Of a stretch of 42,319 bases of DNA, positions 29,385-42,111 are shown piece by piece. Source of the stretch: a virus. The stretch is from positions 1 to 42,319 of IMG/VR virus record IMGVR_UViG_3300048838_000198. One strand, 5' to 3'. Both the position numbers and the translations under genes were made by a program. The stretch's first letter is position 1. Each line of letters opens with the position of its first letter. A model generated the notes under the pieces. The model did no database searches and was not told where the DNA came from. It saw only the letters and a list, made by a program, of their open reading frames with translations.

Positions 29385-30266
29385 ATGATACTTAATGAAT
29401 TTAAGAATAAATACTTAGGGAAACAGGTTGAATATCATAGCAATGGTGGGAGTGATACATGGTATCAGTGTGTAGATTTAGTAAATCAATATATAAAAGA
29501 ACTTGGTTTAACTCCGATCATCGGAACTAACGCCAAAGACTTCAAAGACAGATTCAACAAAGAAGAATTTGACTGGATACCCAATAACCCAAATGATGAC
29601 AAGTTTCCACAACCAGGCGATATTGTGGTCTGGAATGGAAATGTTGGTGGTGGAGCTGGACACATTGCGATTGCTCTCAATTCTAGCCCTACTGGTTTTA
29701 CTAGTCTTGATCAGAATTGGAGCAAGAAACAAGTAGTCACTACCGAGAATCATAATTATAATAATGTATCAGGGTGGTTGCACCCGAAGGAGAACATGGC
29801 AGGTTTACCAGAGAATTATCCAGACATCATCCATAACTCAGTACAGTGGGAAGAATTACACAAATACCTAGAACTCCCAGGAGAGCCTAAGTCAACCCAG
29901 GCAGAAGCCGTTATTAACTCTATCGGAGGGCTTAAATCCAGAGCTACAGACCTACAGAACCAACTCGCTAAAACCCAAGCTGAGGTGAAGAACCGTGAAG
30001 AACAGGTTAGCAGACTCAAGGAACAGATTGCTAATGAACAGACTCTCAATAAAGCCCTTACCACCAAGCTAAATGATGCCATGTCAGCCCTTAAAACTTT
30101 GGCAGGGGACTATGAGGGTAGGATTGGGGTACTCCAGGAGCAGGTTAATGATCTGGCAAAGGATAAGGGGGAGTTGAATAAACAGATCGCTTTACTCCAA
30201 GCTGGACAACAAGATTGCTTTGACATCTTCTTATCAAATATCAAAAAACTATTCAAGAAAGGATAG
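29385..30266 (+). CDS. CHAP-domain endolysin with C-terminal coiled coil
   Basis: The CHAP domain occupies residues 1-145: catalytic Cys29 (YQCVDLVNQYI), His93 (AGHIAIAL) and the third-residue region DQNW at 109-112. CHAP enzymes cut peptide bonds of peptidoglycan (amidase or endopeptidase). Residues about 182-280 are a long coiled coil (KSRATDLQNQLAKTQAEVKN ...), in place of a usual SH3 or LysM wall-binding domain, perhaps for oligomerisation. AAAGGA precedes the ATG. It is followed by a holin-like gene, so lysis is its probable role. Confidence 0.87.
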   Translation: MILNEFKNKYLGKQVEYHSNGGSDTWYQCVDLVNQYIKELGLTPIIGTNAKDFKDRFNKEEFDWIPNNPNDDKFPQPGDIVVWNGNVGGGAGHIAIALNSSPTGFTSLDQNWSKKQVVTTENHNYNNVSGWLHPKENMAGLPENYPDIIHNSVQWEELHKYLELPGEPKSTQAEAVINSIGGLKSRATDLQNQLAKTQAEVKNREEQVSRLKEQIANEQTLNKALTTKLNDAMSALKTLAGDYEGRIGVLQEQVNDLAKDKGELNKQIALLQAGQQDCFDIFLSNIKKLFKKG

Positions 30267-30267
30267 T

Positions 30268-30465
30268 ATGGCTAAGAAAATAACTCCCGAGCAGAAGTCC
30301 GCCATTAAGGAAGGACTTAGAGTGTTTGTGTGGGCAGGATTGTCCGCAGTATTACCAATTCTTATTGGCTGGATGAGTCAAGACCCCCGATGGGTGGTAA
30401 TGATCCCAGTGGTCAATGCAGTAGCCTACTCACTCAAGATTGGGGTAGACAACAGAAAGTCATAA
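30268..30465 (+). CDS. Holin-like small membrane protein (65 aa)
   Basis: Two hydrophobic segments (about 17-35, FVWAGLSAVLPILIGWM, and 41-60, VVMIPVVNAVAYSLKIGV) are flanked by charged tails (MAKKITPEQK and DNRKS). This is the class II holin layout, directly behind the CHAP endolysin with AAAGGA before its ATG. Release of the endolysin is the expected function. Confidence 0.75.
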   Translation: MAKKITPEQKSAIKEGLRVFVWAGLSAVLPILIGWMSQDPRWVVMIPVVNAVAYSLKIGVDNRKS

Positions 30466-30750
30466 ATGACCAAACATGAGATTTGGCATCGTGGCAGTAA
30501 ATCATTCTGTGACGTACATCGCCAGACTGATGGCAGGTTTCACGACCAACATTGGCAAGAAGCACCAAGGGGTGAACAGCTACCAGAAGCTATCTTTGCT
30601 GAGATGTATCGGATGTTTCTAAGGCTTGAAGCCAATGAGCCTAAGTATGACTGGTACTACATCCGCTATGACCATGAAGATGTTGTACCTGAGAATGAAA
30701 ACAATACCACCTTCAAACTAATCAACGGTGAATGGGTTAAAGCGTTATGA
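30466..30750 (+). CDS. Hypothetical protein (94 aa)
   Basis: The protein starts one base after the holin stop (ATAAATG) and reads MTKHEIWHRGSKSFCDVHRQ. It is charged, with many His and Trp residues, and no domain recognised. Begins the block of small plus-strand genes between lysis and replication. Confidence 0.65.
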   Translation: MTKHEIWHRGSKSFCDVHRQTDGRFHDQHWQEAPRGEQLPEAIFAEMYRMFLRLEANEPKYDWYYIRYDHEDVVPENENNTTFKLINGEWVKAL

Positions 30751-31028
30751 ACGAGCAAGAACCCAGACGGCTTCCCAATGGTTTAGTAGATGTTGACTCC
30801 TACCTGACAGAAAACGGTAGGGAACCTGTACCGATGGGAGTTAATGCTGACGGCTCACAAACTTACCTAGAGGGATATTTGACCCTGGAGGGGATACAGA
30901 TACCCCTTGACCGCCTTGACTACTACCTAGAACAACTAGTTTCGGAAAAAAAACCTAACGATAATGGAGTTTTGGATGCTCTGCGACGTTATCTTGGGGG
31001 TGAACTTCTGGAACAGACAACAGAATAA
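30747..31028 (+). CDS. Hypothetical protein (93 aa)
   Basis: ATGA overlap with the preceding gene. The protein (MNEQEPRRLPNGLVDVDSYL ...) is acidic, has a short strand-rich middle (YLEGYLTLEGIQIPL) and a helical end. No family assigned. Confidence 0.6.
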   Translation: MNEQEPRRLPNGLVDVDSYLTENGREPVPMGVNADGSQTYLEGYLTLEGIQIPLDRLDYYLEQLVSEKKPNDNGVLDALRRYLGGELLEQTTE

Positions 31029-31051
31029 ATTAGAACAGTTAGGCATTAAAT

Positions 31052-31534
31052 ATGCGTGAACGACCAGACCTGTATGACGTTGCTAAACGGATAGACATAC
31101 AAAATGAGAACAGAACCTTGTGGGAACTTAATGATACCCCCGAAGAACTGGAACGGATATTTGATATTGAGGTAGAGGAGATGAGAGAGTGTGAGGCTAA
31201 CTTCTTTCTAAAGGACTATGCAGACTTTCACATGATTAGTGAGGTGGGGGATGTAGGATACCTATTCTTACGCTACCAGAGCTTATATGACCATGTACCC
31301 GAAAGAATGGTAAAGAAACTGTCTGAGGCTATCAACATCTCTAGTAGGTGTGGGTTTACCATGACTGATGCGGTGGAAATGAAGCTCTGGAGAAATTCGC
31401 ATAAGTACGGGGATGTACATTTTGATGCCTTTGGTGACTTTAAAGAGGGTGTAGGGGCATCTAAGAGGCTGTGGGAGGCTATGGGTGGTGATGAAGCCTT
31501 CTTCCACTGGTATATGGAGGAATATGGAGAATAA
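31052..31534 (+). CDS. Hypothetical acidic protein (160 aa)
   Basis: The protein is helical and acidic (NDTPEELERIFDIEVEEMRE, then DYADFHMISEVGDVGYLFLR). The pattern of Glu and Asp on helices and the GDVGYLFLR segment is vaguely like MazG-type all-alpha NTP hydrolases, but the metal-binding motif is not clear enough to name it. It overlaps the HNH gene by 11 bases. Confidence 0.6.
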   Translation: MRERPDLYDVAKRIDIQNENRTLWELNDTPEELERIFDIEVEEMRECEANFFLKDYADFHMISEVGDVGYLFLRYQSLYDHVPERMVKKLSEAINISSRCGFTMTDAVEMKLWRNSHKYGDVHFDAFGDFKEGVGASKRLWEAMGGDEAFFHWYMEEYGE

Positions 31535-31940
31535 CCCACCCTGGGAACTAACCGAAGAAATAAGAAAGATGCTTGAGAATGAGAATCCTGATTGGGATAC
31601 TCAAGAACAACCCACCTGGGAAACTGAATATCCCCAACCAGAATACATATCCCTAGCTCCAGTTATCTTAGATGCACTTACTAAGAAACAACGACAAGCC
31701 ATCCTAGAGCGTGATGACTATACTTCCCAGATGAGGCACTACAGTGAGGATGAGGGATGGCATCATGGTGGTTATTGTGAGGATGGTGGTAAAGAGTGTA
31801 CCGATCTTCATGTCCACCACATAATCCCACAGAGAGAGGGTGGATTAGATGAACCTGAGAATCTTATTACCCTGTTTGCTTGTGAGCATATTGGGGTATG
31901 TAAACAACAAAAAATTAAAAGGGAGGTAGCAAAGAAATGA
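31524..31940 (+). CDS. HNH endonuclease (138 aa)
   Basis: The ATG at 31524 follows GGAGG closely. The C-terminal half has the HNH core: LHVHHIIPQREGGLDEPENL with the HH pair and following Asn, and CEHIGVCKQQK. An upstream CEDGGKEC pair may help bind zinc. HNH nucleases near phage genes act in packaging, recombination or homing; this one sits far from terL, between lysis and replication, so homing or recombination is more likely. Confidence 0.8.
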   Translation: MENNPPWELTEEIRKMLENENPDWDTQEQPTWETEYPQPEYISLAPVILDALTKKQRQAILERDDYTSQMRHYSEDEGWHHGGYCEDGGKECTDLHVHHIIPQREGGLDEPENLITLFACEHIGVCKQQKIKREVAKK

Positions 31941-32176
31941 AAGAGCGTAAATACGTAGACCAAGACAAAGCCTTTGTGGTACATCCTGATATAACAGAAG
32001 CATTTACCAGCTATGATGGTAGTCCTGACCACTTTAAGAAAACATTTGACCACAGAGATCAACTAATATCTGATGGTGAGTATTACTGGAACACCGACCA
32101 TGACGTTGAGATGACTGAAACTGCCGAGATTAGATCAAAGCAACCAGGATGGGAGTACCCAGGAAAGAAGAAATGA
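31937..32176 (+). CDS. Hypothetical protein (79 aa)
   Basis: ATGA overlap with the HNH gene. The protein starts MKERKYVDQDKAFVVHPDIT and is charged with several His and Tyr residues. No domain recognised. Confidence 0.55.
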   Translation: MKERKYVDQDKAFVVHPDITEAFTSYDGSPDHFKKTFDHRDQLISDGEYYWNTDHDVEMTETAEIRSKQPGWEYPGKKK

Positions 32177-32397
32177 AAGAACAAGAACCCCAGTGGTCTG
32201 AGATCACCGAACAGGACTTTAGGCTGAGGCTGAAAACTGCCATTGAAAGTCACATGGAGCAGATCAATCAACTAGAGAATCTATGGCAACAGTACCTATG
32301 GGGAAAGCAAAACGGATATATTACTAGGGCAATGGAAGCTCCTGATGGAAACATAGCGGTTAGTTTAGAGGAGAAGTCACCGATAGGGTTTAAGTGA
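32173..32397 (+). CDS. Hypothetical helical protein (74 aa)
   Basis: The ATG at 32173 overlaps the upstream stop and has AGGAAAGAAG before it; the ATG at 32149 would give a longer overlap. The protein (MKEQEPQWSEITEQDFRLRL ...) has one amphipathic helix (SHMEQINQLENLWQQYLWGK). It is the last gene of its transcription unit; a terminator lies 20 bases further on. Confidence 0.55.
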   Translation: MKEQEPQWSEITEQDFRLRLKTAIESHMEQINQLENLWQQYLWGKQNGYITRAMEAPDGNIAVSLEEKSPIGFK

Positions 32398-32403
32398 TAT
32401 AAT
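32395..32403 (+). promoter_or_regulatory. Extended -10 promoter directly before a terminator
   Basis: TGATATAAT (32395-32403) is a perfect extended -10 element; no good -35 is seen. Transcription from it would start near 32410 and meet the terminator at 32418-32450 at once, suggesting attenuation of a replication transcript or a very short RNA. Confidence 0.4.
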
Positions 32404-32417
32404 ATCTAAGCATGTTT

Positions 32418-32450
32418 GCAAACAACCCTCTTAATCGGGGGGTTTTTTGC
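32418..32450 (+). terminator. Rho-independent terminator ahead of the replication genes
   Basis: GCAAA and AACCCTC (32418-32430) pair with GGGGGTT and TTTGC (32438-32450), one C-T mismatch in between and a seven-base loop, with a run of six T on the right arm. It ends the lysis/small-gene unit and could also act as an attenuator for the promoter just upstream. Confidence 0.82.
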
Positions 32451-32478
32451 CTATTTACAACAATCTAAAAAAGTATTA

Positions 32479-32599
32479 GATTGGTTGTGTGGTGAACAGT
32501 TATTCAAATACCAAAGATTGAAATTTAAGGCAGCCCCCTGTTGGTTTTTTGCTGTTCACCAACTTCAATCGCCACGGGGGGCTACTTTAGAAGAAAGTA
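32479..32599 (+). promoter_or_regulatory. Structured leader with interleaved inverted repeats before the initiator gene
   Basis: Three pairs of complementary segments occur in the order A-B-C-A'-B'-C': A TGGTGAACAG (32490-32499) with A' CTGTTCACCA (32552-32561); B GATTGAA (32516-32522) with B' TTCAATC (32564-32570); C AGCCCCC (32532-32538) with C' GGGGGCT (32577-32583). A-A' and C-C' together would form a pseudoknot. B' may instead pair with a second GATTG (32479-32483), extending A-A'. A last small hairpin (TACTTT 32583-32588 with AAAGTA 32594-32599) holds AGAAG, the only ribosome-binding-like sequence, in its loop before the ATG at 32602. Confidence 0.6.
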
Positions 32600-32601
32600 A
32601 T

Positions 32602-33300
32602 ATGTCCTGGAAACAACCAATACCAGTCACTATTTTTGAAGCATTCGGTAAAGACCACCTGGCACGTGATTTATTTATTCATTTGTTGTTAAGAGCAAGA
32701 GCTGAAGATATGGATGATTATGGTTACTATGAGGGAAAGCCATATAAATTGAAGCGAGGACAGGTGATAATGGGGCAGAATGAATATGCTGTAAAACTGA
32801 GGAGTTCGGGTTCAAATGTTTGGAGAGCTTGTGTAAGATTAGTGAACAGGGTAGACCACTACAAAGTGAATAAGCAAGCAAGTTATAATTACTCCATTAT
32901 ATCAATCCTTTTTTATGACGATCTAACAAAGATGAATAAGCAGTTGAATAAGCAGTTGAATAAGCAACGAATAAGCAGTGAACAAGCAGTGAATACTAAC
33001 AAGAACGTAAGAACGATAGAAAAGAATATACATAACAAATCATTGTTTGATGATATGGATGAAAAGAAGATGTTTGATTGTGCAAGAAAGTATCAAATAG
33101 ATATTGCTGTTGTAAAACAATATAAAGACAACTACATCGGCTGGGTTGAAGAAAAGCCTAACGATAAAAATAGACAGGGCAGGGTTATGTCCAAGACTGT
33201 TCAAAACTGGCTCAGGCGGGATATCCAAAATGGCAAGATAACCCCCAAGACAACCTTTGAACAAAAAATAAACAAATACATGGAGGAATTAAATGCTTAA
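32602..33300 (+). CDS. Replication initiator-like protein with N-terminal winged helix
   Basis: Residues 1-115 have the form of the winged-helix N-terminal domain of phage replisome organisers: FIHLLLRARAEDMDDYGYYE, the wing-like PYKLKRGQVIMGQNEYAVKL, recognition-helix region SGSNVWRACVRLVNR and YNYSIISILFYDD. A basic linker (about 112-140) follows, encoded by the DNA repeats described separately, then a C-terminal domain (CARKYQIDIAVVKQYKDNYI, KTVQNWLRRDIQNGK) like the DnaD/O-type part that binds DNA or loads helicase. It is coupled to the primase-helicase gene. The longer frame from 32416 would start inside the terminator and is rejected. Confidence 0.7.
   Translation: MSWKQPIPVTIFEAFGKDHLARDLFIHLLLRARAEDMDDYGYYEGKPYKLKRGQVIMGQNEYAVKLRSSGSNVWRACVRLVNRVDHYKVNKQASYNYSIISILFYDDLTKMNKQLNKQLNKQRISSEQAVNTNKNVRTIEKNIHNKSLFDDMDEKKMFDCARKYQIDIAVVKQYKDNYIGWVEEKPNDKNRQGRVMSKTVQNWLRRDIQNGKITPKTTFEQKINKYMEELNA
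32935..32991 (+). repeat. Iteron-like direct repeats inside the initiator gene (candidate origin)
   Basis: Five tandem copies: AATAAGCAGTTG twice (12 bases each), then AATAAGCAACG, AATAAGCAGTG and AACAAGCAGTG (11 bases each); a sixth partial copy lies at 32869-32878. Because the spacing changes from 12 to 11, later copies are read in other frames (NKQL, NKQL, NKQR, then ISSEQAV), so the DNA and not the peptide is repeated. AT-rich DNA follows. This resembles lambda, where the origin lies within gene O. Confidence 0.65.
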
Positions 33301-34831
33301 CACAGCCCTGCAATACTACAAGTCTGGACTTTGCATCTTGCCCCTAACAGGTAACAAGAAAAACCCTAGCTTAACATCCTGGGATGAATACAAAACAAAT
33401 AGGCCATCACTAGATCAAACAAGAGAGTGGTTTTCTACCCCCGACATTACTGGTATTGTTATGGTTTGCGGTAAGGTGTCTGGGGTAACTGTTGTAGATG
33501 ATGACAGTTATAAAACAGGTAACCCACTAACACTACACTCTCCCCTGGAGTCAAAAACTGCCTCTGGTGGCAGGCATATATTCTTTAAGTATTCACCAAA
33601 TGTGAAAAACCAGAATGTGAGAACTAGCGACCAGGAGTTTGAAATACAAAACGATGGAAAACTAATTGTCTTACCGCCAAGTAAAGCCATGAACAAGTCT
33701 GGGGTGATTGGTCAATATGAGTGGTTGGTAAAAGATCAGGGCATCATTCACCTGCTCCCAGAGCTGGGAGATGATTTTACTGCTCAATACAAGATCACTG
33801 ACCATCATGGTGTTGATATGTCTGAGTTATTCAGTGTTTCACTAGGACAACAACACAACTACCTCAGAACTCTTATCAACAAACTACTTTTTCAAACCCC
33901 CGAGGAAGCCTGGGAGAACCAGGTGAAACCAATAGTCTTGTCGGCAGCAGAAAAATATAACCCACCCCATCCACCCGAAAGAGTAGAAAAACTATGGAAT
34001 GATTGTGTTTATTTTGTGAGTGGCAAAAAACAACAACAGCACCAACCACTAGGCTTATCAAAAATATCCATAGAAAGACAGGCTGAAAGAGAGCTGGAAA
34101 GAAACTCACCCTCAACAGGTTTTGAGGGATTAGATAAGTTGATTAAGGGTTTTGTACCAGGAAGGTTGTACATCCTAACAGGTGACACAAATGTTGGTAA
34201 AACTTCAATAGCTGCCAACTTCACAATCGCCCTGGCAGAGAAAAATCATAAGGTTTTATACTTTGCATTAGAACCAGCCAACACCGTTATTGACTACCTA
34301 GATACTGTTGCTTACAACATTACTTTTGACCAGATAGAACACGACTATCAGAATGAAAATATAAAAATATACACCAGGGATCAGGTGGAAACCCTAGAGC
34401 AAATGGTTGGTGTGGTAAAAAAACTACCAAGACAGGACTTGATTGTGGTAGATCACATTGGTTATTTTGTTTCTCCCAAGAATGGAAATGTATATCAAGC
34501 ACAAAGTGACACTATGAAAATTCTAGTCCAGCTGGCAAAGAAGAAGAACTCCGCCATTATCCTAATAGCTCACACCAGAAAAGGATTAAAAGACGGTATT
34601 CCTAAAATAGACGATATATCTGGTTCTGGTTCATTCAAACAAGACGCTACCGATGTTTTAATCGTGGTTAAAGATCAGGATGAGGACTCAAAGTATGGTA
34701 ATGAGTATCTAAACAAGGGAGCGATTATTGTGGCTAAAACTAAGTCTGGTTCCAATGGATATATACCAATTACTTTCAAGGAAAGGAGTGCCAAAATACA
34801 TGAACAAAACACCTTCAAGCCAGCTTTCTGA
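33293..34831 (+). CDS. Primase-polymerase fused to a DnaB-type helicase (512 aa)
   Basis: Residues 1-160 are a bifunctional primase-polymerase (archaeo-eukaryotic primase) domain: VTVVDDD at 65-71 as metal ligands and SGGRHIFFKY at 91-100 with the catalytic His. Residues about 270-505 are a RecA-like hexameric helicase: Walker A GDTNVGKTS at 297-305, Walker B LIVVDH at 383-388, IILIAHTRK, and the DISGSGSFKQDATDVLIV region. Together they unwind the fork and make primers. The start overlaps the initiator stop with GGAGG upstream. No phage DNA polymerase is found, so this enzyme presumably recruits the host replicase. Confidence 0.9.
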   Translation: MLNTALQYYKSGLCILPLTGNKKNPSLTSWDEYKTNRPSLDQTREWFSTPDITGIVMVCGKVSGVTVVDDDSYKTGNPLTLHSPLESKTASGGRHIFFKYSPNVKNQNVRTSDQEFEIQNDGKLIVLPPSKAMNKSGVIGQYEWLVKDQGIIHLLPELGDDFTAQYKITDHHGVDMSELFSVSLGQQHNYLRTLINKLLFQTPEEAWENQVKPIVLSAAEKYNPPHPPERVEKLWNDCVYFVSGKKQQQHQPLGLSKISIERQAERELERNSPSTGFEGLDKLIKGFVPGRLYILTGDTNVGKTSIAANFTIALAEKNHKVLYFALEPANTVIDYLDTVAYNITFDQIEHDYQNENIKIYTRDQVETLEQMVGVVKKLPRQDLIVVDHIGYFVSPKNGNVYQAQSDTMKILVQLAKKKNSAIILIAHTRKGLKDGIPKIDDISGSGSFKQDATDVLIVVKDQDEDSKYGNEYLNKGAIIVAKTKSGSNGYIPITFKERSAKIHEQNTFKPAF

Positions 34832-35042
34832 GTTGAAAGTCAGAGTTAGAAAAGGGAGAGCTTGGTTGCAATTAAATGAAAAAGATCCAAACTACACAGA
34901 CAATCTGAAATTGTATCAATCGCTGGTAGATCAGGTTATAGAGTATGGTTCTACCGAAAAAGAGTGTTGGAGCTATTACCCAGAAGGGAAAACCGTGGAT
35001 GAACTTAGTGAACAAGAAATTATAATAGAGATTGATAAATAA
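34800..35042 (+). CDS. Small hypothetical protein (80 aa)
   Basis: The ATG at 34800 overlaps the helicase end by 32 bases and has AAAGGAG about 11 bases upstream. The protein (MNKTPSSQLSELKVRVRKGR ...) has a basic N-terminal helix and an acidic end (TVDELSEQEIIIEIDK). It may be a replication accessory protein. No family assigned. Confidence 0.6.
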   Translation: MNKTPSSQLSELKVRVRKGRAWLQLNEKDPNYTDNLKLYQSLVDQVIEYGSTEKECWSYYPEGKTVDELSEQEIIIEIDK

Positions 35043-35044
35043 AT

Positions 35045-35299
35045 ATGAAAAAATATCTACCACCCCTTGAGGTTTGTTGTGAAGAATGTCATAAAATTAC
35101 CATTGCCCCACACTCAAACATCACGCTTCACTTTATGACTACTTGCCCCATTCATGGATCTAAATATATTCCAAGCCCATTTAAAAAAAGCCTGATGGAT
35201 TATGAAATAAAAGTATCAGATGAGCTAAGAACATTTGATAAAAGCGAAAGGAGACAATATGCAAAAGACAATCCAGGATTATTTAGAAAAGAAGATTAA
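35045..35299 (+). CDS. Small zinc-binding protein (84 aa)
   Basis: Cysteines in CCEECHK (near residue 11) and CPIHG (near residue 35) could bind zinc. The C-terminal half is charged and helical (SDELRTFDKSERRQYAKDNP). It begins two bases after the previous stop with no clear ribosome-binding site, so it is probably coupled. Confidence 0.6.
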   Translation: MKKYLPPLEVCCEECHKITIAPHSNITLHFMTTCPIHGSKYIPSPFKKSLMDYEIKVSDELRTFDKSERRQYAKDNPGLFRKED

Positions 35300-35387
35300 A
35301 CAATTTATTGAAGATGACTTACCTGATGAATACTTAGATCAATGGGTATCGCTTTATTTCTCCCAGGCTGATCTAAAAAAAGAATAG
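35259..35387 (+). CDS. Small acidic protein (42 aa)
   Basis: The frame reads MQKTIQDYLEKKIKQFIEDD and ends SQADLKKE. It has an excellent ribosome-binding site (AAAGGAG, six bases before the ATG) and overlaps the previous gene by 41 bases in another frame. The product should be a single amphipathic helix pair. Small size leaves some doubt. Confidence 0.6.
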   Translation: MQKTIQDYLEKKIKQFIEDDLPDEYLDQWVSLYFSQADLKKE

Positions 35388-35421
35388 GCACGTAATCAAT
35401 TAAGAAAACCTGCCTACCTTT

Positions 35422-35430
35422 TGCTATAAT
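35422..35430 (+). promoter_or_regulatory. Extended -10 promoter for the 35507 gene
   Basis: TGCTATAAT (35422-35430) is a perfect extended -10 lying in the near palindrome GCTATAATAGC (35423-35433), which could be an operator. No -35 is needed for such promoters and none is clear. The start near 35437 gives a leader of about 70 bases that carries the hairpin at 35456-35502. Confidence 0.5.
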
Positions 35431-35455
35431 AGCATAAAGCATTCTGTTTGCATAC

Positions 35456-35502
35456 CCTGACTGGCATCTGTATGTTCCCCCGAACTTCAAAGTCCAGTCA
35501 GG
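35456..35502 (+). promoter_or_regulatory. Long leader hairpin sequestering a ribosome-binding site
   Basis: CCTGACTGG (35456-35464) pairs perfectly with CCAGTCAGG (35494-35502). The 29-base loop contains a second small hairpin GTTC-CCCC-GAAC. The right arm includes AGG of the only Shine-Dalgarno-like sequence (AGGA, 35500-35503) and ends four bases before the ATG at 35507. Closing it would block translation; no T-run follows, so it is not a terminator. Confidence 0.6.
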
Positions 35503-35506
35503 ATAT

Positions 35507-35944
35507 ATGGACAGAAGCCTATTAGCACAAGATTGGTTTGAAGCATTGGTTACCGACTGTAAGGCTATTGTGGTTGAGGGGGAGTTTGTGAGTAGGTGGG
35601 CTTTAATAGAAACCTATCACGAAGTAGGGGGAAGAATTCTTAAGGATAATGATAATTTTAAGAGAAGCAGCATCTATGGTCAGCAAATAGCCAGAACAAT
35701 CGGTGAAGTGTTAGGAAAATCTGAACGCACAATACAATACGCAATAGCTTTCGCAAAGAAATATCCAGTGTTGGATGAAGCACCATTAGAAAAAAACGCT
35801 AGTTGGACCAAGGTGGTCAATGAGCTTTTACCAGAAAATCCTAGAGAAGAAATTGTTAGAAGATGCAAGTGTTGTGGTTTTGACCAGGCAAAAACCCCTA
35901 CTGAACACGATAAACAATACCACCGTCACCCCGACATTGTTTAG
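35507..35944 (+). CDS. Hypothetical protein with DNA-binding-like helix and zinc-type C-terminus (145 aa)
   Basis: The protein starts MDRSLLAQDWFEALVTDCKA and has a helical region in which IARTIGEVLGKSERTIQYAI (about residues 64-83) looks like a helix-turn-helix. The C-terminus has RRCKCCGFDQ with later HDKQYHRH, possibly a metal site. It is the last plus-strand gene before the minus-strand block and has its own promoter and leader hairpin, suggesting a regulator. No family name can be given with confidence. Confidence 0.65.
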   Translation: MDRSLLAQDWFEALVTDCKAIVVEGEFVSRWALIETYHEVGGRILKDNDNFKRSSIYGQQIARTIGEVLGKSERTIQYAIAFAKKYPVLDEAPLEKNASWTKVVNELLPENPREEIVRRCKCCGFDQAKTPTEHDKQYHRHPDIV

Positions 35945-36095
35945 CTTCCATAATAAATTCAACATTGGATACTCCAAACTGGCACAGAATTAGGGGTTGG
36001 TTAGGCAAAAGCATACTACCATCCACCATTGACATAAAAAAGAGAATTAGAGCCAATACACTGCCCCAGAACACTATATTAAACTTCTTCTGCAT
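35898..36095 (-). CDS. Small exported or membrane protein (65 aa)
   Basis: An N-terminal hydrophobic stretch (residues 8-24: VFWGSVLALILFFMSMV) follows MQKKFNI, fitting a signal peptide or membrane anchor. Its start overlaps the HNH gene end by 17 bases in another frame. Its 3' end overlaps that of the convergent gene at 35507-35944 by 47 bases. Role unknown. Confidence 0.5.
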   Translation of the reverse strand: MQKKFNIVFWGSVLALILFFMSMVDGSMLLPNQPLILCQFGVSNVEFIMEAKQCRGDGGIVYRVQ

Positions 36096-36447
36096 GTTTG
36101 TATTTCTTTATTTCTTCTATCTTTTCTTCTAAGTTAATTTTCTTAATGGAAGTTTTGGCAACAATCCTTAATTCGTTATATACATCTTCTCCCAAATAAC
36201 CTTTAACCCATTCAACCGCTTCTACTGGTTGCTGATGCCATTTAAAATGACACGATGCACATAAACAATTCGCATTTATAGGCTCCCATCTTGTTACCAA
36301 AAACCTTCTTGAGAATATATGTGAACACTGGAGAGTTCCATCGTCTACCTTCCCGCACCATTCACAATATCCTTTACGCCTAATAAACTCACTAAATAAA
36401 CGATCAGCCTTATTTTTAAGTGTTTTTTTACTTGCTTTTCTGGGCAT
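36079..36447 (-). CDS. HNH nuclease, NinG-like (122 aa)
   Basis: The core is CEWCGKVDDGTLQCSHIFSR at residues 28-47 (zinc CxxC and the HNH-type SH), then NANCLCASCHFKWHQQP with the Asn and second His, and finally EWVKGYLGEDVYNEL. This order resembles lambda NinG/Rap, which acts on recombination intermediates. The basic N-terminus (MPRKASKKTLKNKADRLFSE) fits DNA binding. It is part of the minus-strand operon. Confidence 0.78.
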   Translation of the reverse strand: MPRKASKKTLKNKADRLFSEFIRRKGYCEWCGKVDDGTLQCSHIFSRRFLVTRWEPINANCLCASCHFKWHQQPVEAVEWVKGYLGEDVYNELRIVAKTSIKKINLEEKIEEIKKYKHAEEV

Positions 36448-36448
36448 A

Positions 36449-36607
36449 TTAAAAGTTAAACTTTCTAAATACTTTATTACTCTTACTCCACACTGCCTTA
36501 CTTACACACTCAGGGCAATACTTACTCCATCCTCCAGCATGTTTAATACTGGTGAATATCTCTTTACAGTGTACACACTCTATTTCTCTCTTGGGTTTAA
36601 CTTTCAT
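36449..36607 (-). CDS. Small zinc-ribbon protein (52 aa)
   Basis: The frame reads MKVKPKREIECVHCKEIFTS and later KYCPECVSKAVWSKS, giving two CxxC pairs in a basic zinc-ribbon of the kind used in small nucleic-acid binding proteins. The start overlaps the preceding gene by 11 bases (GATAATGAAAGTTAA) with GAGG upstream, and the stop lies one base before the HNH gene ATG. Confidence 0.7.
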   Translation of the reverse strand: MKVKPKREIECVHCKEIFTSIKHAGGWSKYCPECVSKAVWSKSNKVFRKFNF

Positions 36608-36905
36608 TATCCTCCAAATATGCTTTAAGTATTACTAGGTAGTTGGCCATATCCAAAATTGTGTCCATAACTGTCTCATCCTTAACTGCTACATCCTCAC
36701 TGTCTACTAAGTTGCATAACCTGGCAAACTTGTCTGATATGCGTACCAGGATAGCTCGCTCTACACTTACCCCACAGTAGTCTGCATACCTGAAATTACG
36801 CCAAGGGTCTATCTCGGTTGCGTAGTCATGGTTCTTCTTCTTCACTATCTCCAGGGCATCAGTGTAGGATTTCTCAATACTGTCTAAGAATTGTTTGGTG
36901 GTCAT
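36597..36905 (-). CDS. MazG-like/Nmad1 (DUF1599) nucleotide-modification-associated protein
   Basis: The 102-residue all-alpha protein has the characteristic NHDYATEIDPWRNFRYADYC, then SVERAILVRISDKFARLCNL and the metal-site-like DTILDMANYLVILKAYLE. This matches the family called DUF1599 or Nmad1, related to MazG-type NTP pyrophosphohydrolases and found in phages that modify DNA bases. Here it could remove an unwanted nucleotide or help nucleotide supply. No other recognised modification enzyme is present. Confidence 0.72.
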   Translation of the reverse strand: MTTKQFLDSIEKSYTDALEIVKKKNHDYATEIDPWRNFRYADYCGVSVERAILVRISDKFARLCNLVDSEDVAVKDETVMDTILDMANYLVILKAYLEDNES

Positions 36906-37105
36906 TCCTTACTCCTTAGCTCATCTATTTTAAATTCAATAAATCTCCAATAAAGCAAATCCCAATTAAAATGACCCTGATACCAACCAAATCTAAACAA
37001 ACATCCTTCAAGATCATCTACCTCAATGAGTAATAAAGAAAATAGGAAAGTGGGATAGTTAGCCCATCTCTCAACCATCAACTCTAGTGGTTTTAATATT
37101 ATCAT
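36902..37105 (-). CDS. Small hypothetical protein (67 aa)
   Basis: ATGA-type overlap with both neighbours. The protein is aromatic-rich (MIILKPLELMVERWANYPTF, then FRFGWYQGHFNWDLLYWRFI). No domain recognised. Confidence 0.6.
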   Translation of the reverse strand: MIILKPLELMVERWANYPTFLFSLLLIEVDDLEGCLFRFGWYQGHFNWDLLYWRFIEFKIDELRSKE

Positions 37106-37419
37106 TCCCTACTCCTAATTAACTTAATAACGTCTTGGATGGTTGAATTTCTCATTCTCCGCCTTGCTTTTTCTATCCTACATTCCACATCATCCAATTC
37201 ACACTCAAGTCTATCATCAACCATCCATTCCCCCACCTCTTTCTTTAGGTCTGCTCTCTGCTGGTCTAGTAGGGATTGACAGATGTTGTTCCAGAACCTA
37301 CAGCCAGCTTCCCATCCATATTTATACGACTGGTCTGCTGTTGAATTCATCGGATAGTTAACAACATTTGCTTCCCACATTTTTTTAATGACTTCTTCTA
37401 AATCCTGCCAGTTTTTCAT
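37102..37419 (-). CDS. Hypothetical protein (105 aa)
   Basis: The protein begins MKNWQDLEEVIKKMWEANVV and is mostly helical, with a charged C-terminal helix (ECRIEKARRRMRNSTIQDVI). Its ATG lies in the third copy of the GATAAATAACATTATGA cassette, which also carries the end of the preceding gene. No family assigned. Confidence 0.65.
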   Translation of the reverse strand: MKNWQDLEEVIKKMWEANVVNYPMNSTADQSYKYGWEAGCRFWNNICQSLLDQQRADLKKEVGEWMVDDRLECELDDVECRIEKARRRMRNSTIQDVIKLIRSRE

Positions 37420-37423
37420 AATG

Positions 37424-37612
37424 TTATTTATCCCTTTCTGGTCTTGTTTTTTGTTCCCAATAGTCTCTGATGCTAAAAAATAAGTCTGTCATATCAGCAT
37501 GTCCACCAATGCTTCCGTCTGGGTTTTGCCATCCAATAATAAGTCTATTTTTGTTCTCCGATTGAGTAACATCAATGAATAACTCTATACCTCTGTTTTT
37601 ATATATAGCCAT
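37424..37612 (-). CDS. Small hypothetical protein (62 aa)
   Basis: The protein begins MAIYKNRGIELFIDVTQSEN and is an alpha/beta mixture with IIGWQNPDGSIGGHADMTDL. AAAGGA seven bases before its ATG comes from the repeated cassette. No domain recognised. Confidence 0.65.
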   Translation of the reverse strand: MAIYKNRGIELFIDVTQSENKNRLIIGWQNPDGSIGGHADMTDLFFSIRDYWEQKTRPERDK

Positions 37613-37630
37613 ATATTTCCTTTCATAATG

Positions 37631-37804
37631 TTATTTATCTTTTAATTTTAATCTTTGCATAAATTCTTTTCCTCTAAGTTTTGCCTCTAAATCAATTACT
37701 CTTTGCTCAAGTGTTTGGATGTATTGCACAATCTCTAACGTATCTCTAATATCTGTAGACATATCTGCTCTACTTGTGTATTTAAAATCTTTAATACTCC
37801 TCAT
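37631..37804 (-). CDS. Small coiled-coil protein (57 aa)
   Basis: The frame reads MRSIKDFKYTSRADMSTDIR and then a heptad-like helix (LEIVQYIQTLEQRVIDLEAK). It has AAAGGA eight bases before the ATG and ends exactly in a copy of the repeated cassette. Supported by spacing between neighbours; function unknown. Confidence 0.65.
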   Translation of the reverse strand: MRSIKDFKYTSRADMSTDIRDTLEIVQYIQTLEQRVIDLEAKLRGKEFMQRLKLKDK

Positions 37805-37825
37805 AGTCTTAATCCTTTCATAATG

Positions 37826-37867
37826 TTATTTATCCTTTCTAAGGTTAGCTTTGTACTCCTCACACAT
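37826..37867 (-). CDS. Possible 13-codon ORF or gene remnant
   Basis: MCEEYKANLRKDK starts one base after the stop of the upstream gene (TAGTATG) and ends in the cassette sequence GATAAATAA. Its last residues match the DK end of the next small gene, so it may be the leftover ends of a deleted gene. Too short to be sure that it is functional. Confidence 0.25.
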   Translation of the reverse strand: MCEEYKANLRKDK

Positions 37868-37868
37868 A

Positions 37869-38195
37869 CTAAACCCCTAATTCTTGTTTAAGCATCTTAA
37901 TAAAAGCCTCACGCCAGTCTAATTTGTTGTCATACTTATTATCGTTTTCGTACAGCCATTCAATGATGTGGGAGTATTGACCGAAGGGGGTTGGTTTGTC
38001 TACCCAAGGACAATATGGATGATATGCTCCACACTTTTTACACTTCTCATCCTCCACCTCAACTGCACCAAGGGCTATGAGGTCTTGTGGGTTATGCCAT
38101 ACATCGTTATCCTTGCTGTACCATTCATTAGCTGATTTAACCCACTCAAACACCACCTCACCTACTCGGTACTTTTTGGTTTTATTTAGTTTCAT
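37869..38195 (-). CDS. Hypothetical protein with zinc-type cysteines (108 aa)
   Basis: The protein starts MKLNKTKKYRVGEVVFEWVK (beta-rich, basic) and has CKKCGAYHPYCPW in the middle (about residues 52-64), followed by an aromatic helical end. GAAGGAGAAAGT precedes the ATG. No family assigned. Confidence 0.65.
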   Translation of the reverse strand: MKLNKTKKYRVGEVVFEWVKSANEWYSKDNDVWHNPQDLIALGAVEVEDEKCKKCGAYHPYCPWVDKPTPFGQYSHIIEWLYENDNKYDNKLDWREAFIKMLKQELGV

Positions 38196-38205
38196 ACTTT
38201 CTCCT

Positions 38206-38373
38206 TCATTGGCTCTTTTTTATCCCATCCCTCATCCCCTCCTGATATGCGGTTTGGAGGGTTTGAGTGACGGAGTAGGTTAGTTGTTCTTCGCTCCACT
38301 CTCCCGAAAAGAATAAGTTAAAATTCTTTTTATACTCAGCTACCAGCTTGTCTATGGTTTTGTCTAGTTTCAT
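38206..38373 (-). CDS. Small hypothetical protein (55 aa)
   Basis: The frame reads MKLDKTIDKLVAEYKKNFNL and later QTLQTAYQEGMRDGIKKSQ, two helices. Its start overlaps the preceding stop by ATGA, and the stop is followed by the ribosome-binding site of the next gene, so it fills the gap exactly. Confidence 0.62.
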   Translation of the reverse strand: MKLDKTIDKLVAEYKKNFNLFFSGEWSEEQLTYSVTQTLQTAYQEGMRDGIKKSQ

Positions 38374-38504
38374 ACTTTCCTTATACTAATTGATACTTGA
38401 TCTGGTAGGTGGTCAAATAGCCAGACTATTCCCATGAGTATGTAGAGGATAAATAGGATTGGTATTCCTAAGATAATAATGATTATTTGGCTAATTTTAC
38501 TCAT
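38370..38504 (-). CDS. Small single-pass membrane peptide (44 aa)
   Basis: MSKIS is followed by a long hydrophobic helix (QIIIIILGIPILFILYILMG) and a short tail. Coupled by overlaps (8 and 4 bases) to both neighbours. Small hydrophobic phage peptides can act on host membranes or exclude other phages; here function is unknown. Confidence 0.6.
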   Translation of the reverse strand: MSKISQIIIIILGIPILFILYILMGIVWLFDHLPDQVSISIRKV

Positions 38505-38670
38505 TTTCTTTTAACTTCCCAAACTTCTCAGCATAATAGACTGCACCAATGCTTAATAATAAATCCCATCCAGCATAAAGATCCCACTCTCCATCATTGA
38601 TAAGAACAACTGTTCCTACCGCCATAATTACTAATGTGACCCAAAAAAATATCCTCAATGCTTCTTTCAT
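38497..38670 (-). CDS. Small membrane protein, two helices (57 aa)
   Basis: The frame reads MKEALRIFFWVTLVIMAVGT with a first membrane helix, then a possible second one (GWDLLLSIGAVYYAEKFGKL). The ATG follows AGAATAGGGTAAAT, a variant of the recurrent stop-start cassette. It overlaps the next gene by eight bases. Holin-like size but placed in the early-type arm. Confidence 0.62.
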   Translation of the reverse strand: MKEALRIFFWVTLVIMAVGTVVLINDGEWDLYAGWDLLLSIGAVYYAEKFGKLKENE

Positions 38671-38677
38671 ATTTACC

Positions 38678-38914
38678 CTATTCTCTCTCTGCTAATTTAT
38701 ATAAAACATATCTAAGCTTGTAAGTTCCGGCGCTGAATTTGTCATCAAACTCTTTTTCTAACACTACATCACTATCTGAGTATGTTTTTATTTCCCCCTC
38801 AATCTTTACCATGCAGTTATGTTTGAAGTATTTATCAGGGATACCAATATACAAATTGGCGTTGCCCAGTCCTATTTTATAACCAGGGAAAGTAGTTTTT
38901 GGTTTATAGATCAT
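38678..38914 (-). CDS. Small beta-rich protein (78 aa)
   Basis: The protein starts MIYKPKTTFPGYKIGLGNAN and continues with strands (KYFKHNCMVKIEGEIKTYSD) and a basic end. It overlaps the HNH gene end by 11 bases. No domain recognised. Confidence 0.6.
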   Translation of the reverse strand: MIYKPKTTFPGYKIGLGNANLYIGIPDKYFKHNCMVKIEGEIKTYSDSDVVLEKEFDDKFSAGTYKLRYVLYKLAERE

Positions 38915-39437
38915 AATATCTCCTTGATGCTTCTATTGCTGCCCTGTTTCCTTTTTTCCACCTGATTCTTTCTATTTCATTCCTGCAAACTTTACATACA
39001 GGATGAAACATTGACTTTGTTAATTTGTATTTAGATATGTAGTGTGTTTTGTGCCAAAAACTCGTATTTAACTGTTTTGTTTTTCCACACCTACCACAAG
39101 TTTTCTCTTTATCATCTTTTAATCCATCCTCAACACTTTCACTAGCTATCTTTTTACAACAGTTGCACTCATAACAAAGTATTTGGATATTGCCCTGTTC
39201 ATATTCCCCTCCCATTGAGGCGGGAACAATTCTATCAATTGTGAGTTTTTCTTTTGACCCACACTCAACACATTCCTGAATCTGATTGACAAACCATGTG
39301 GTTAGCATGATGTGATCTCTTCCAGTTTTTCTAAACCTATGGTTTATCTTCCTACAGCCTTCGCAGGTTAATGTTCTTTTATTTGCGTGTGGTTTTAATT
39401 GGACATGTTTTGAACAAAATCTACAAACAGTTTTCAT
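38904..39437 (-). CDS. HNH-type nuclease with several zinc knuckles (177 aa)
   Basis: The ATG at 39437 forms an ATGA overlap with the upstream transglycosylase gene. CxxC pairs occur in CRFCSKH, CEGC, CVECG, CYEC, CGRCGK and CKVC. The HNH-like core is LTIDRIVPASMGGEYEQGNI followed by LCYECN; the usual DH is DR here, so one catalytic His is replaced. A C-terminal second zinc module (CGRCGKTKQLNTSFWHKTHY) resembles those of homing nucleases. Confidence 0.72.
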   Translation of the reverse strand: MKTVCRFCSKHVQLKPHANKRTLTCEGCRKINHRFRKTGRDHIMLTTWFVNQIQECVECGSKEKLTIDRIVPASMGGEYEQGNIQILCYECNCCKKIASESVEDGLKDDKEKTCGRCGKTKQLNTSFWHKTHYISKYKLTKSMFHPVCKVCRNEIERIRWKKGNRAAIEASRRYYDL

Positions 39438-39937
39438 AAGCCAACCTTTCCAGCACACACCCATGCTGACCAATTTCCCCTACCATCATATATTTCTTTA
39501 GCAACCATCGTGTTAGTTATTGGGTCTGTTAAAAACCTTTCAGAAACTCCATGAACAGAGTTTATTTGGAATAATCCCACATCTACTGTTCCGTTGTTAT
39601 TCACGTTTCTAGCATCAGCTCTCAGCCCGGACTCACATTTTGCTATAGATATCGCAAGGGCTGCATCATCTTTGAATATCGCCCGAATGATCTCTTCATT
39701 AGTGGCCGGGAAAGCATATTCTGGCGGTTTACTCTTATAAAGATCATCATAAGCACTCGCTATTTGAGCATAGGTTCTCGCTCGCTCCGTTTCTAATAAC
39801 TCACTAGCTTGGATATATTTAGACATATTAACTTTATCCATCACTAGTAAGATTATGGCTATGAGCATAACCGAACAGATAAAAACTAGTATCAGTGACA
39901 TCTTTTTTTGAGATTGCCACATCTTTTTATATTGCAT
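39434..39937 (-). CDS. Membrane-anchored lytic transglycosylase
   Basis: Residues 14-33 form one membrane helix (SLILVFICSVMLIAIILLVM). The C-terminal domain has the lysozyme-like transglycosylase signature: catalytic Glu102 in IAKCESGL, GLFQIN at 121-126 and NWSAW at 155-159. Such enzymes cut the glycan strand between sugars. GGGGGGAAC precedes the ATG at 39937. It lies in the early-type minus-strand operon, away from the endolysin, which is unusual and discussed in the findings. Confidence 0.85.
   Translation of the reverse strand: MQYKKMWQSQKKMSLILVFICSVMLIAIILLVMDKVNMSKYIQASELLETERARTYAQIASAYDDLYKSKPPEYAFPATNEEIIRAIFKDDAALAISIAKCESGLRADARNVNNNGTVDVGLFQINSVHGVSERFLTDPITNTMVAKEIYDGRGNWSAWVCAGKVGL
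39777..39793. repeat. 17-bp dispersed repeat, copy 1
   Basis: CTCGCTCGCTCCGTTTC occurs here inside the transglycosylase gene (coding ETERAR on the minus strand) and again exactly at 41764-41780. Related sequences are at 41297-41312 and 41067-41075. Confidence 0.7.
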
Positions 39938-39955
39938 GTTCCCCCCTTTTAATTA

Positions 39956-40291
39956 TTATTTAAGTGATTGAGCTATATCATCTGCAGACATATTAGAGGT
40001 AGTGGGCCTTTTTTCAAAAGCTTCAAATTCCTTCCAGTAATATCCACCATCTTTATATTGTCCTAGTCCAGACTTACCCCCACAATGATTACATTTAACA
40101 TTGATGAAGGTGAACCCTTTTGACTTATTAGTCACTAGCCCAAACTTATCCTCATGTGACTGGCACACATTACATACTTTTCTTATTTGAGATACTGCAA
40201 TCGCCTTGTGCATTGCTTGAATGTCATCCTTATCTTCAAATTCAAATTGATAACTTACTCCTCCCAGTTTAAGGTTAACTTTACTTATCAT
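39956..40291 (-). CDS. Zinc-ribbon protein (111 aa)
   Basis: A beta-rich N-terminus (MISKVNLKLGGVSYQFEFED) is followed by a four-cysteine ribbon (CNVCQSHEDKFGLVTNKSKG, then CNHCGGKSGLGQYKDGGYYW). This pattern recurs in Gram-positive phage early regions. Nucleic-acid binding is plausible. It overlaps the membrane peptide upstream by 11 bases. Confidence 0.65.
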   Translation of the reverse strand: MISKVNLKLGGVSYQFEFEDKDDIQAMHKAIAVSQIRKVCNVCQSHEDKFGLVTNKSKGFTFINVKCNHCGGKSGLGQYKDGGYYWKEFEAFEKRPTTSNMSADDIAQSLK

Positions 40292-40400
40292 TTCTCACCT
40301 TTCTAGTTAAGAGATATAACCAAACAATAATTATTAAAATACTTATATCCTGTATCAAGTTGATCCTACCAGGACTACAAAAACTAAGATCAAAAGTCAT
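40281..40400 (-). CDS. Small membrane peptide (39 aa)
   Basis: The frame reads MTFDLSFCSPGRINLIQDIS with a hydrophobic helix (ILIIIVWLYLL) and a basic tail. It exactly fills the gap, overlapping both neighbouring genes by 11 bases. No ribosome-binding site is clear, so translation is probably coupled to the nuclease gene. Confidence 0.5.
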   Translation of the reverse strand: MTFDLSFCSPGRINLIQDISILIIIVWLYLLTRKVRNDK

Positions 40401-41052
40401 AGCCAACACTCCTTAACTTATCTTCATTAATAAATTTGTACAGTTCTAAGGCGTGTTTAAATGCCTCAAATCCATCTCTTGCTTTAGCTTGGGTATAAGT
40501 ACCATCTTCCGCTAAAGCCACGATTAAACCATCCCTCACCTCCTCACAATTGATATAAGCACTAACTTGTATATGAGCTTCATTGTAAATAATACCCTTC
40601 TTGCTTGTTTTAAAGTCAATCACGTGGGGCACTCCGTTTATCTCTGCCAACATATCCAAAGTTCCGGCATAACCATATTCTTGATTGATAATTGTTTTCT
40701 CATTATCCAACACTTTCGGTTGAATATCATCAAACCATGAATAAAAAGCATTGGTATATCCCTTTAGATCAGGGGGTGGGGTTATTCTGTCCGCCCCATG
40801 TTTATGAGCTTCAATTATTGAATGAATAACTGTACCTCTATCTTTAGCACTCCCCGAAGTTGCATAGGGTGCATTCAGGGCGGTTCTTTCATCAATTGAG
40901 GGATCTTTAATCGTTGCAAAATATACCTGTTGTCCGAACCAGTATTGAATAGCTGGCTTGTCAATAATTCTCAATATATTAGTTACACTTAAATAGGGCT
41001 TGTCATTAACCCAGTAAAACCCCCCCCTGCGTTTATTTATTTGATTTGCCAT
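40390..41052 (-). CDS. PD-(D/E)XK nuclease, RecB/Cas4-like (220 aa)
   Basis: Motifs in order: RGTVIHSIIEAH with His77, GTLDMLAEINGVPHVIDFKT giving Asp133, Asp146 and Lys148, and the helix EAHIQVSAYI with Gln162. These are the RecB-type exonuclease/Cas4 core without the iron-sulphur cysteines of Cas4. Phages use such enzymes for host DNA degradation or recombination. It lies next to a helix-turn-helix gene in the same operon. Confidence 0.85.
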   Translation of the reverse strand: MANQINKRRGGFYWVNDKPYLSVTNILRIIDKPAIQYWFGQQVYFATIKDPSIDERTALNAPYATSGSAKDRGTVIHSIIEAHKHGADRITPPPDLKGYTNAFYSWFDDIQPKVLDNEKTIINQEYGYAGTLDMLAEINGVPHVIDFKTSKKGIIYNEAHIQVSAYINCEEVRDGLIVALAEDGTYTQAKARDGFEAFKHALELYKFINEDKLRSVGYDF

Positions 41053-41200
41053 ATACTCCTCTCAATCGCTCCATTTCAGTTTCATTTATAAACCAATCCC
41101 GACCACGCTTTTCAGCCTGTATCTGCCCCAGGTTTACTTTTAGCCTGGTATGTTGCTCTGATAATCCCAAAATCTGGGCTGTTTCTTTAATCGTGTACAT
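41033..41200 (-). CDS. Excisionase/MerR-like helix-turn-helix protein (55 aa)
   Basis: The frame reads MYTIKETAQILGLSEQHTRL, then KVNLGQIQAEKRGRDWFINE: a winged helix-turn-helix with the wing Arg-Asp-Trp, as in small excisionase-type DNA binders. It overlaps the nuclease start by 20 bases. No integrase is present, so a regulatory rather than excision role is likely. Confidence 0.68.
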   Translation of the reverse strand: MYTIKETAQILGLSEQHTRLKVNLGQIQAEKRGRDWFINETEMERLRGVYGKSNK

Positions 41201-41345
41201 TTTTTAACTCCAATCTTTTATTTAGCTTTTTAATCATCCAATAATTGATAAAATTAACCAGCTCCACATCACCATATTCATTCGCAAATAGATCAATCGC
41301 TCGCTCCATTTCAGTTTTCAAATATTCTTTTCTTACTTCTCCCAT
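41187..41345 (-). CDS. Small helical protein (52 aa)
   Basis: The frame reads MGEVRKEYLKTEMERAIDLF and later VNFINYWMIKKLNKRLELKN. The TEMER part is encoded by a copy of the dispersed GGAGCGAGCGA repeat. Overlaps of 13 and 14 bases with its neighbours support it as a coding gene. Function unknown. Confidence 0.6.
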   Translation of the reverse strand: MGEVRKEYLKTEMERAIDLFANEYGDVELVNFINYWMIKKLNKRLELKNVHD

Positions 41346-41509
41346 GTTACCCCCATGTTTTTCTTGATATCCTCAAGGTCTTTCATAATAGCGTCAAGCT
41401 TGCTATTTAATGACATTGTTTCTCTATTGATTAGATCAATCTGACCTTGCTCACCATGTTTCTTGCCCAGCTCATACATATCTCGCAATGATTGTTCTAC
41501 AGCATCCAT
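41333..41509 (-). CDS. Small coiled-coil protein (58 aa)
   Basis: The ATG at 41509 lies in GGGGGAAATTAGTATG, a variant of the stop-start cassette, and is preferred to two upstream in-frame ATGs that overlap the previous gene. The protein (MDAVEQSLRDMYELGKKHGE, then LNSKLDAIMKDLEDIKKNMG) is helical throughout. Confidence 0.65.
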   Translation of the reverse strand: MDAVEQSLRDMYELGKKHGEQGQIDLINRETMSLNSKLDAIMKDLEDIKKNMGVTWEK

Positions 41510-41510
41510 A

Positions 41511-41702
41511 CTAATTTCCCCCATCTTGATTATAATAATTCTCAGCATGGCTAATTAAACAATCTAAACATACCGGTTCATTGTCGCCATCCCATGTACT
41601 GCTACAATCCTCACCGCAGCCAATACATTCTACTTTCTCCGGATTACAGTCATCACAAACCGCCCATTCTGTATAATCATCATGCCCATGTATTGAATTC
41701 AT
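41511..41702 (-). CDS. Acidic zinc-finger protein (63 aa)
   Basis: Cysteines CDDC, CIGCGEDC and CLDC are arranged as two or more zinc knuckles in a very acidic chain (MNSIHGHDDYTEWAVCDDCN). It has a strong GGGGGGA ribosome-binding site and the promoter at 41733-41761 just upstream. An acidic zinc protein could act as a DNA mimic or host-protein binder; this is inference. Confidence 0.7.
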   Translation of the reverse strand: MNSIHGHDDYTEWAVCDDCNPEKVECIGCGEDCSSTWDGDNEPVCLDCLISHAENYYNQDGGN

Positions 41703-41732
41703 ATATTGTCCCCCCTTAATAATTGTTATGTT

Positions 41733-41761
41733 ACTATAACACTTTTCATATTGTATTGCAA
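41733..41761 (-). promoter_or_regulatory. Sigma70-type promoter inside the minus-strand arm
   Basis: On the minus strand, TTGCAA (41761-41756), a 17-base spacer and TATAGT (41738-41733) predict a start near 41726, followed by the GGGGGGA site and ATG at 41702. The -35 directly adjoins one copy of the 17-bp dispersed repeat. Confidence 0.65.
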
Positions 41762-41763
41762 GC

Positions 41764-41780
41764 CTCGCTCGCTCCGTTTC
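41764..41780. repeat. 17-bp dispersed repeat, copy 2
   Basis: Exact second copy of CTCGCTCGCTCCGTTTC (see 39777-39793). It spans the stop of the 41779-42111 gene and ends next to the -35 box of the following promoter. Confidence 0.7.
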
Positions 41781-42111
41781 AATTTACCCCGCATTCATGA
41801 TCTACTTGTAGATAATCACCACACAGTGGGCATATCTCAAGCTCTGGCGTGCTATCTGCCCCCTCTAAGTAATCATCTGGCGTATAAAATCCTTCACTGG
41901 CCTTGATATATTCCTCTTTTGTTATCTTGATTGAGTTATACCTGAGATAATCAGGACAAACCCCGCTGTGTTGTCCTATAGGTGCATAGCTGGTATATGT
42001 TGGGTTTCTGTCTCCTCTAGTTGGTTGTTCTAGTGAGTCCATATCAACTAGGAAATAAGAGGATAACCCACATTTTTTATAATCTCTTGACTTGTAAAAT
42101 TGTATTGTCAT
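41779..42111 (-). CDS. Hypothetical protein with C-terminal metal-binding cysteines (110 aa)
   Basis: The protein begins MTIQFYKSRDYKKCGLSSYF. It ends CPLCGDYLQVDHECGVN, a CxxC plus HxC cluster likely to bind zinc. Its ATG is in the GCAAATAGTATG stop-start arrangement. It is followed by the promoter at 41733-41761. Function unknown. Confidence 0.65.
   Translation of the reverse strand: MTIQFYKSRDYKKCGLSSYFLVDMDSLEQPTRGDRNPTYTSYAPIGQHSGVCPDYLRYNSIKITKEEYIKASEGFYTPDDYLEGADSTPELEICPLCGDYLQVDHECGVN

Follow-up and report, generated by a model that had tools for sequence, protein, structure and literature searches.

Does the DNA before the replication genes of this phage encode a regulatory RNA, and how could complementary segments that cross one another act on a gene? 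The window analysed here is the whole of record IMGVR_UViG_3300048838_000198 (42,319 bases), an uncultivated phage record with a 127-base direct repeat at both ends, whose terminase and head proteins resemble those of distant phages only. A sequence-only reading had described three interleaved complementary pairs in front of the initiator gene and had proposed for them either a cis-acting RNA controlling replication or a DNA structure at the origin.

Three interleaved pairs precede the replication genes

The leader site is bounded on its 5′ side by an ORF ending at 32397 and on its 3′ side by the ATG of the initiator-position gene (Table 1). The product of this gene, P0001, found no match in Pfam, PHROG, NCBIfam or PDB and was not identified as an SSB in the same comparisons, and its AlphaFold model was unusable (mean pLDDT 44); in a ten-sequence set it matched the same-place gene of the relative L088 (24% over 195 aa, E 3.5e-5). 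The array of period 11 inside the gene likely represents the origin iterons, and similar arrays lie likewise within the initiator-position genes of L084 and L089. The initiator reading frame stays open across the entire leader, back to a TTG at 32416, and is likewise open across the element in L086 and L092. A 10-base exact repeat, GGTTTTTTGC, occurs at 32441-32450, after the upstream terminator-like hairpin, and again at 32543-32552 in the loop of C. As a leader promoter, TTTACA..TAGATT at 32454-32482 was dropped; it overlaps P0, and promoter-like sites there are no commoner than chance.

Table 1. Features of the leader element and its surroundings in the window.
Feature	Position	Strand	Remark
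Extended -10-like promoter element TGATATAAT	32396..32404	+	upstream of leader; read by eye, not tool-scored
Terminator-like hairpin and T-run of upstream genes	32424..32450	+	8 pairs, then TTTTGCC
Hairpin P0, 8 bp	32461-32468/32476-32483	+	positional counterpart of relatives' P0
Arm A	32490..32500	+	11 pairs with A′
Arm B	32516..32522	+	7 pairs with B′
Arm C	32524..32541	+	outer 32524-32530, mismatch 32531, inner 32532-32541
Arm A′	32551..32561	+	in 32-nt loop of C
Arm B′	32564..32570	+	in loop of C, 2 nt past A′
Arm C′	32574..32591	+	inner 32574-32583, mismatch 32584, outer 32585-32591
Weak alternative hairpin ACTTT/AAAGT	32584..32598	+	AGAAG (32589-32593) in loop; -2.8 kcal/mol
Initiator-position gene, P0001, 232 aa	32602..33300	+	ATG 10 nt after C′
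Iteron-like array, period 11, 5.5 copies (TGAATAAGCAG)	32933..32995	+	inside initiator-position gene
Prim-Pol and DnaB_C helicase gene	33293..34831	+	source of the query that led to relatives

All three pairs were present in the order A-B-C-A′-B′-C′, as the sequence-only reading had it. Of the lengths that it gave (10, 7 and 7), that of B stood, whereas A proved longer, with 10 Watson-Crick pairs and one G.U, and so did C, in which an inner helix of 10 pairs including one G.U is followed by a C.A mismatch (32531.32584) and 7 outer pairs. The outer part of C′ extends into ribosome-binding-like purines. A GATTG at 32479-32483, which had been taken for a competing segment, is real but belongs to the hairpin P0, and the final hairpin said to hold AGAAG in its loop is present, although weak, and cannot form together with the extended C helix. 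The window element has neither a T-run nor the 5′ CCC..GGG hairpin around A that is described below for relatives.

The triple reached a score of 68, which none of 5000 dinucleotide shuffles of 32479-32601 equalled (best 59); A and C together scored 52, likewise reached in 0 of 5000 (best 49), and B alone, given A and C, had P = 0.013. Across the entire window 68 was the highest triple score, and the next triple not sharing arms scored 56. Ordinary folding programs cannot represent crossing helices; the nested fold that they return (-32.8 kcal/mol) closes all of C as a single hairpin whose 32-base loop contains A′ and B′, and its stability is only moderate relative to shuffles (z -2.25; -3.6 for 32459-32601). 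When the window RNA is truncated at A′ or B′, ordinary folding yields the A-A′ pairing.

The arrangement recurs before helicase genes of other phages

Searches with the leader DNA of the window found no relatives in 50,697 phage records, and those with the leaders of L091 and L086 gave only matches at E 2-7. Initiator and whole-helicase queries had no match in viral or genome contigs, and among the capsid relatives initiator and helicase queries found nothing but two distant DnaB matches to the helicase. An exact search for the A..A′ pattern returned three unrelated GC-rich matches, and a PrimPol sub-query a single spurious match of 16 residues. The query that worked comprised 50 residues round the helicase nucleotide-binding motif and led to 12 loci in the viral search. 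Ten of them (L084-L093) match the window helicase at 32-46% identity and, as L086 and L087 are identical, represent nine distinct close helicase relatives; identity is only 25% in L094 and L095. The capsid relatives comprise 29 records with common structural genes and different replication modules. Comparison of window positions 30000-42000 with these 29 records, which have the structural genes in common with the window but neither its initiator nor its helicase, suggests that the replication module has been exchanged as one unit. Glycosyltransferase-like genes at 8550-11710, within the structural module, are retained in most capsid relatives at 45-53% identity.

Directly before the gene in helicase or initiator position, the A-B-C-A′-B′-C′ order was found in six of the nine distinct loci (L085, L086, L090, L091, L092 and L093). 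An architecture descriptor was also run on both strands of 597,340 bases of capsid-relative DNA, where its top match, with a score of 67, lay upstream of the replication helicase of L062; the background, 1.58 million shuffled strand-bases, held two matches of at least 64 and none of at least 66. Other high scores in real DNA were 71 on the minus strand of L094, in a coding region, 64 in L099, and 68 and 66 in L089, in a repeat array and a tRNA cluster. L093, in which C is split, was overlooked by the descriptor and recovered by the covariance model R1 described below. In the window and seven other distinct elements, the arms follow this order and the loop of C contains A′ and B′; each element lies directly upstream of the initiator/helicase operon, in a single copy per record.

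By sequence, all seven relatives have a CCC..GGG hairpin around A (L085, L086, L090, L091, L092, L093 and L062). A is also the arm most alike in letters among relatives (GGCAAGC-like), and this likeness may mark a recognition site. No element precedes the initiator gene in the other three of the nine distinct loci, L084, L088 and L089, and cultured phages with distant helicases (L096-L100) gave no convincing element. Large tRNA clusters with a tmRNA lie just 3′ of the helicase in L084 (5321-8265) and L089 (5449-8538), both without the RNA element.

Pairs covary and crossing arms exceed shuffled sequence

A covariance model built from L085 and L091 only, with the nested hairpins P0, P1 and C (R1), was searched against 64 sources (799,587 bases). 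It matched exactly at the element in L092 (E 3e-5), L086 (7e-4), L090 (0.003) and L093 (0.027), and beyond these and minus-strand images of L085 and L091 nothing in the 64 sources fell below E 8; L062 scored 20.5 bits against R1 within its own 401 bases. In A5, an alignment of the four new sequences over P0, P1 and C that was fitted to the structure and is thus biased towards it, both partners had changed in 26 of 33 pairs, and 92% of cells were paired; the corresponding share in shuffles was 59%, and none of 500 was as high. An ordinary alignment of L085 with L091 gave five double-sided pair changes, three of them in B, a count as high in 22 of 500 shuffles, with A invariant; these compensatory counts, like those from A5, rest on alignments in a common register. 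The covariance check in relatives that the sequence-only reading had suggested was thereby run, and arms drifting without compensation did not occur there.

Over whole records, model R2 found one forward-strand element in each of seven of the 12 helicase records and no element in L084, L088, L089 or L094. A match on the minus strand of L058 (7427-7580, R2, E 0.0043) corresponds to a hairpin of 26 bp accompanied by weak A and B pairings and was not counted; a 9-bp hairpin stands before it, and it is located after an unrelated band-7-like gene.

The crossing pairs were examined with C held fixed while its loop and 60 upstream bases were shuffled 1000 times. The A+B score of the real sequence was reached in no shuffle for L085, L091, L086 and L093, in 1 for the window, 3 for L092, 9 for L062 and 21 for L090. 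When arms were swapped between sequences, pairing fell to 40-47%, from an own-arm value that is 100% by construction, the arms having been chosen per sequence. Order and complementarity, like the covariation of P0 and C, position and single copy per record, are computed properties of these elements.

The window copy is likely a divergent relative

R2 did not find the window element across the whole window with filters off, and R1, applied to 401 window bases, gave 8.1 bits in a different register. Since there is no covariance-model match, the case for membership of the window is made by the order of the arms, their spacing and the gene context. Measured from A to where C′ ends, the element spans 102 nt in the window and 103 in both L085 and L091; the C.A mismatch inside C stands at the same place in the window, L085 and L090; and the 2-nt gap between A′ and B′, a P0 hairpin 5′ of the element and the same operon are further likenesses to the relatives. 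We regard the window copy as likely a divergent relative, rather than as a proven member.

Alternatively, a strong hairpin and a strong inverted repeat could have met in the window by chance, unrelated to the family of the other phages. Such convergence would agree with the missing covariance-model match, P1 and T-run, and real DNA does hold a few other high descriptor scores (those of L094, L089 and L099). We nevertheless consider it unlikely, given that the top score of the window falls within the 200 bases before the operon, that the spacing, the A′-B′ gap and the mismatch agree with those of the relatives, and that the crossing pairs were so rarely matched in shuffles.

A probable attenuator with mutually exclusive folds

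Seven of the eight elements have a start codon 10 to 38 nt past C′. Six of the eight have a T-run (at least six T in eight bases) after C′, and in these the start codon follows C′ by 16 to 38 nt (17 or 38 in L086, by the start chosen). The start codon of L090 lies within C′, which there holds both a ribosome-binding GGGGAG and the ATG. With no room for a further promoter between C′ and the start in the six T-run elements, the gene there would have to be read through a terminator in its own leader. Promoter-like sites lie just upstream in L090, L062 and L086; across the elements, upstream sites are present in some only.

Following the order of folding, A-A′ or B-B′ pairing was at least 0.88 in all eight elements before C′ is made, and C pairing was at least 0.94 in all eight full RNAs. 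The linkers between C and A′ measure 1 to 9 bases and seem hardly long enough for A and B to pair while C is closed over its full length. The sequence-only reading had offered an H-type pseudoknot or mutually exclusive folds; because several relatives appear to have too few linker bases for all three helices, exclusive folds fit better and the simple H-type fits worse.

The recurrence of the crossing architecture, spelled in different letters, upstream of a homologous operon, in six distinct records and in L062, supports the earlier proposal of a cis-acting RNA before replication genes. We conclude that the element is probably a cis-acting leader RNA, an attenuator, that sets the expression level of the phage replication operon. 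The nascent RNA would yield A, B and the 5′ arm of C, next A′ and B′, and C′ last. While C′ is missing, A-A′ or B-B′ could pair, and both at once would form a pseudoknot through their crossing. On arrival of C′ the long C hairpin could close, with A′ and B′ enclosed in its loop. Closure of C would turn expression off, through a terminator before the start codon in six relatives and through burial of the ribosome-binding site and start codon in L090, and in the window the outer part of the closed helix would reach the ribosome-binding purines. Where A/B pairing persists, C would be delayed or blocked and the gene read. We infer that the RNA is made and exchanges between two states, and the choice between them could be biased by the initiator or helicase protein, by a small molecule or simply by polymerase speed. 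More tentatively, and short of an even chance in our judgement, these elements could define a phage regulatory RNA of a new class. Such a switch would consist of three interlocked helices, with two crossing pairings from upstream segments holding the loop of a hairpin that terminates transcription or blocks ribosomes; it might act as a kinetic timer or sensor licensing the replication helicase, and would exist in transcriptional and translational forms.

A static translational operator, in which the pseudoknot would serve as the nucleation point for a replication protein that occludes its own ribosome-binding site, in the manner of T4 gp32, would account for the location ahead of a replication gene and its start codon, and has a phage precedent (PMC3014915). 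It is improbable here, because the T-run that ends six of the eight elements before the start codon points to transcription termination, and because the first-encoded proteins differ among relatives while the element stays. The same T-runs, with the promoter-like sites just upstream of three elements, could also delimit a free-standing small RNA gene, from promoter to terminator, that stands before the replication operon by chance. This is less probable still, since the close start codons of the six T-run elements require read-through, the window and L090 have no T-run, and one element per record is found, always at the replication operon. Least probable is the origin reading, a DNA structure where replication starts, which the results do not support. 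The nearby initiator and helicase genes might speak for it, as might inverted-repeat arms that would fold on the other strand too. Against it, the element contains no iterons or initiator-binding repeats; in the window, L084 and L089 (two of these three without the RNA element) iteron-like arrays are located within the initiator gene; and the start codons, together with T-runs that follow C′ on a single strand, assign a strand to the element.

Comparison with known systems

Neither the window nor nine relative loci matched Rfam at gathering score, and sub-threshold matches were hairpin look-alikes only. Open-access literature on pseudoknots, leaders and attenuators before phage replication genes, weak evidence of absence by its scope, yielded no such element. 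To our knowledge, signal-sensing leader RNAs have rarely been described in phages. The attenuator that we favour is probably an RNA switch for viral DNA replication of a kind not yet named. If so, a conserved, covarying element found only before the replication operons of uncultivated phages would offer a handle on how they time DNA replication, as well as a compact system in which to study how three crossing helices fold during transcription.

L-type (ABCABC) pseudoknot topology has three mutually crossing helices in parallel order; the element shares this order, whereas its gaps argue against all three helices being closed together. There are riboswitches in which one sensor-like part is coupled either to a terminator or, in other members, to a ribosome-binding site. 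The present elements would resemble them in having transcriptional and translational forms and, unlike them, are known here from sequence alone and have no Rfam match.

Among phage leader RNAs, the gene 32 operator of T4, T2 and RB69 also carries a pseudoknot before a replication gene. It is a small pseudoknot of the H type that lies 67 nt upstream and serves to nucleate protein binding, and a 2010 review suggested that it could be the sole viral example in autoregulated translation (PMC3014915). The present elements have three crossing helices and a long hairpin instead, and in most of them a T-run precedes the start codon. In the repZ leader of the IncI-alpha plasmid ColIb-P9, a pseudoknot activates translation under the control of an antisense RNA (PMC8383071), so that here too a pseudoknot is tied to expression of a replication initiator; unlike that leader, a minus-strand promoter-like site inside the element was found by consensus scan in L092 only, among the window and its seven relatives. 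Attenuators of the pT181 type (PMC3753616) likewise place a terminator and competing folds in the leader of an initiator gene, with an antisense RNA setting the choice, whereas in the present elements A′ and B′ in the terminator loop pair with upstream parts of the same RNA.
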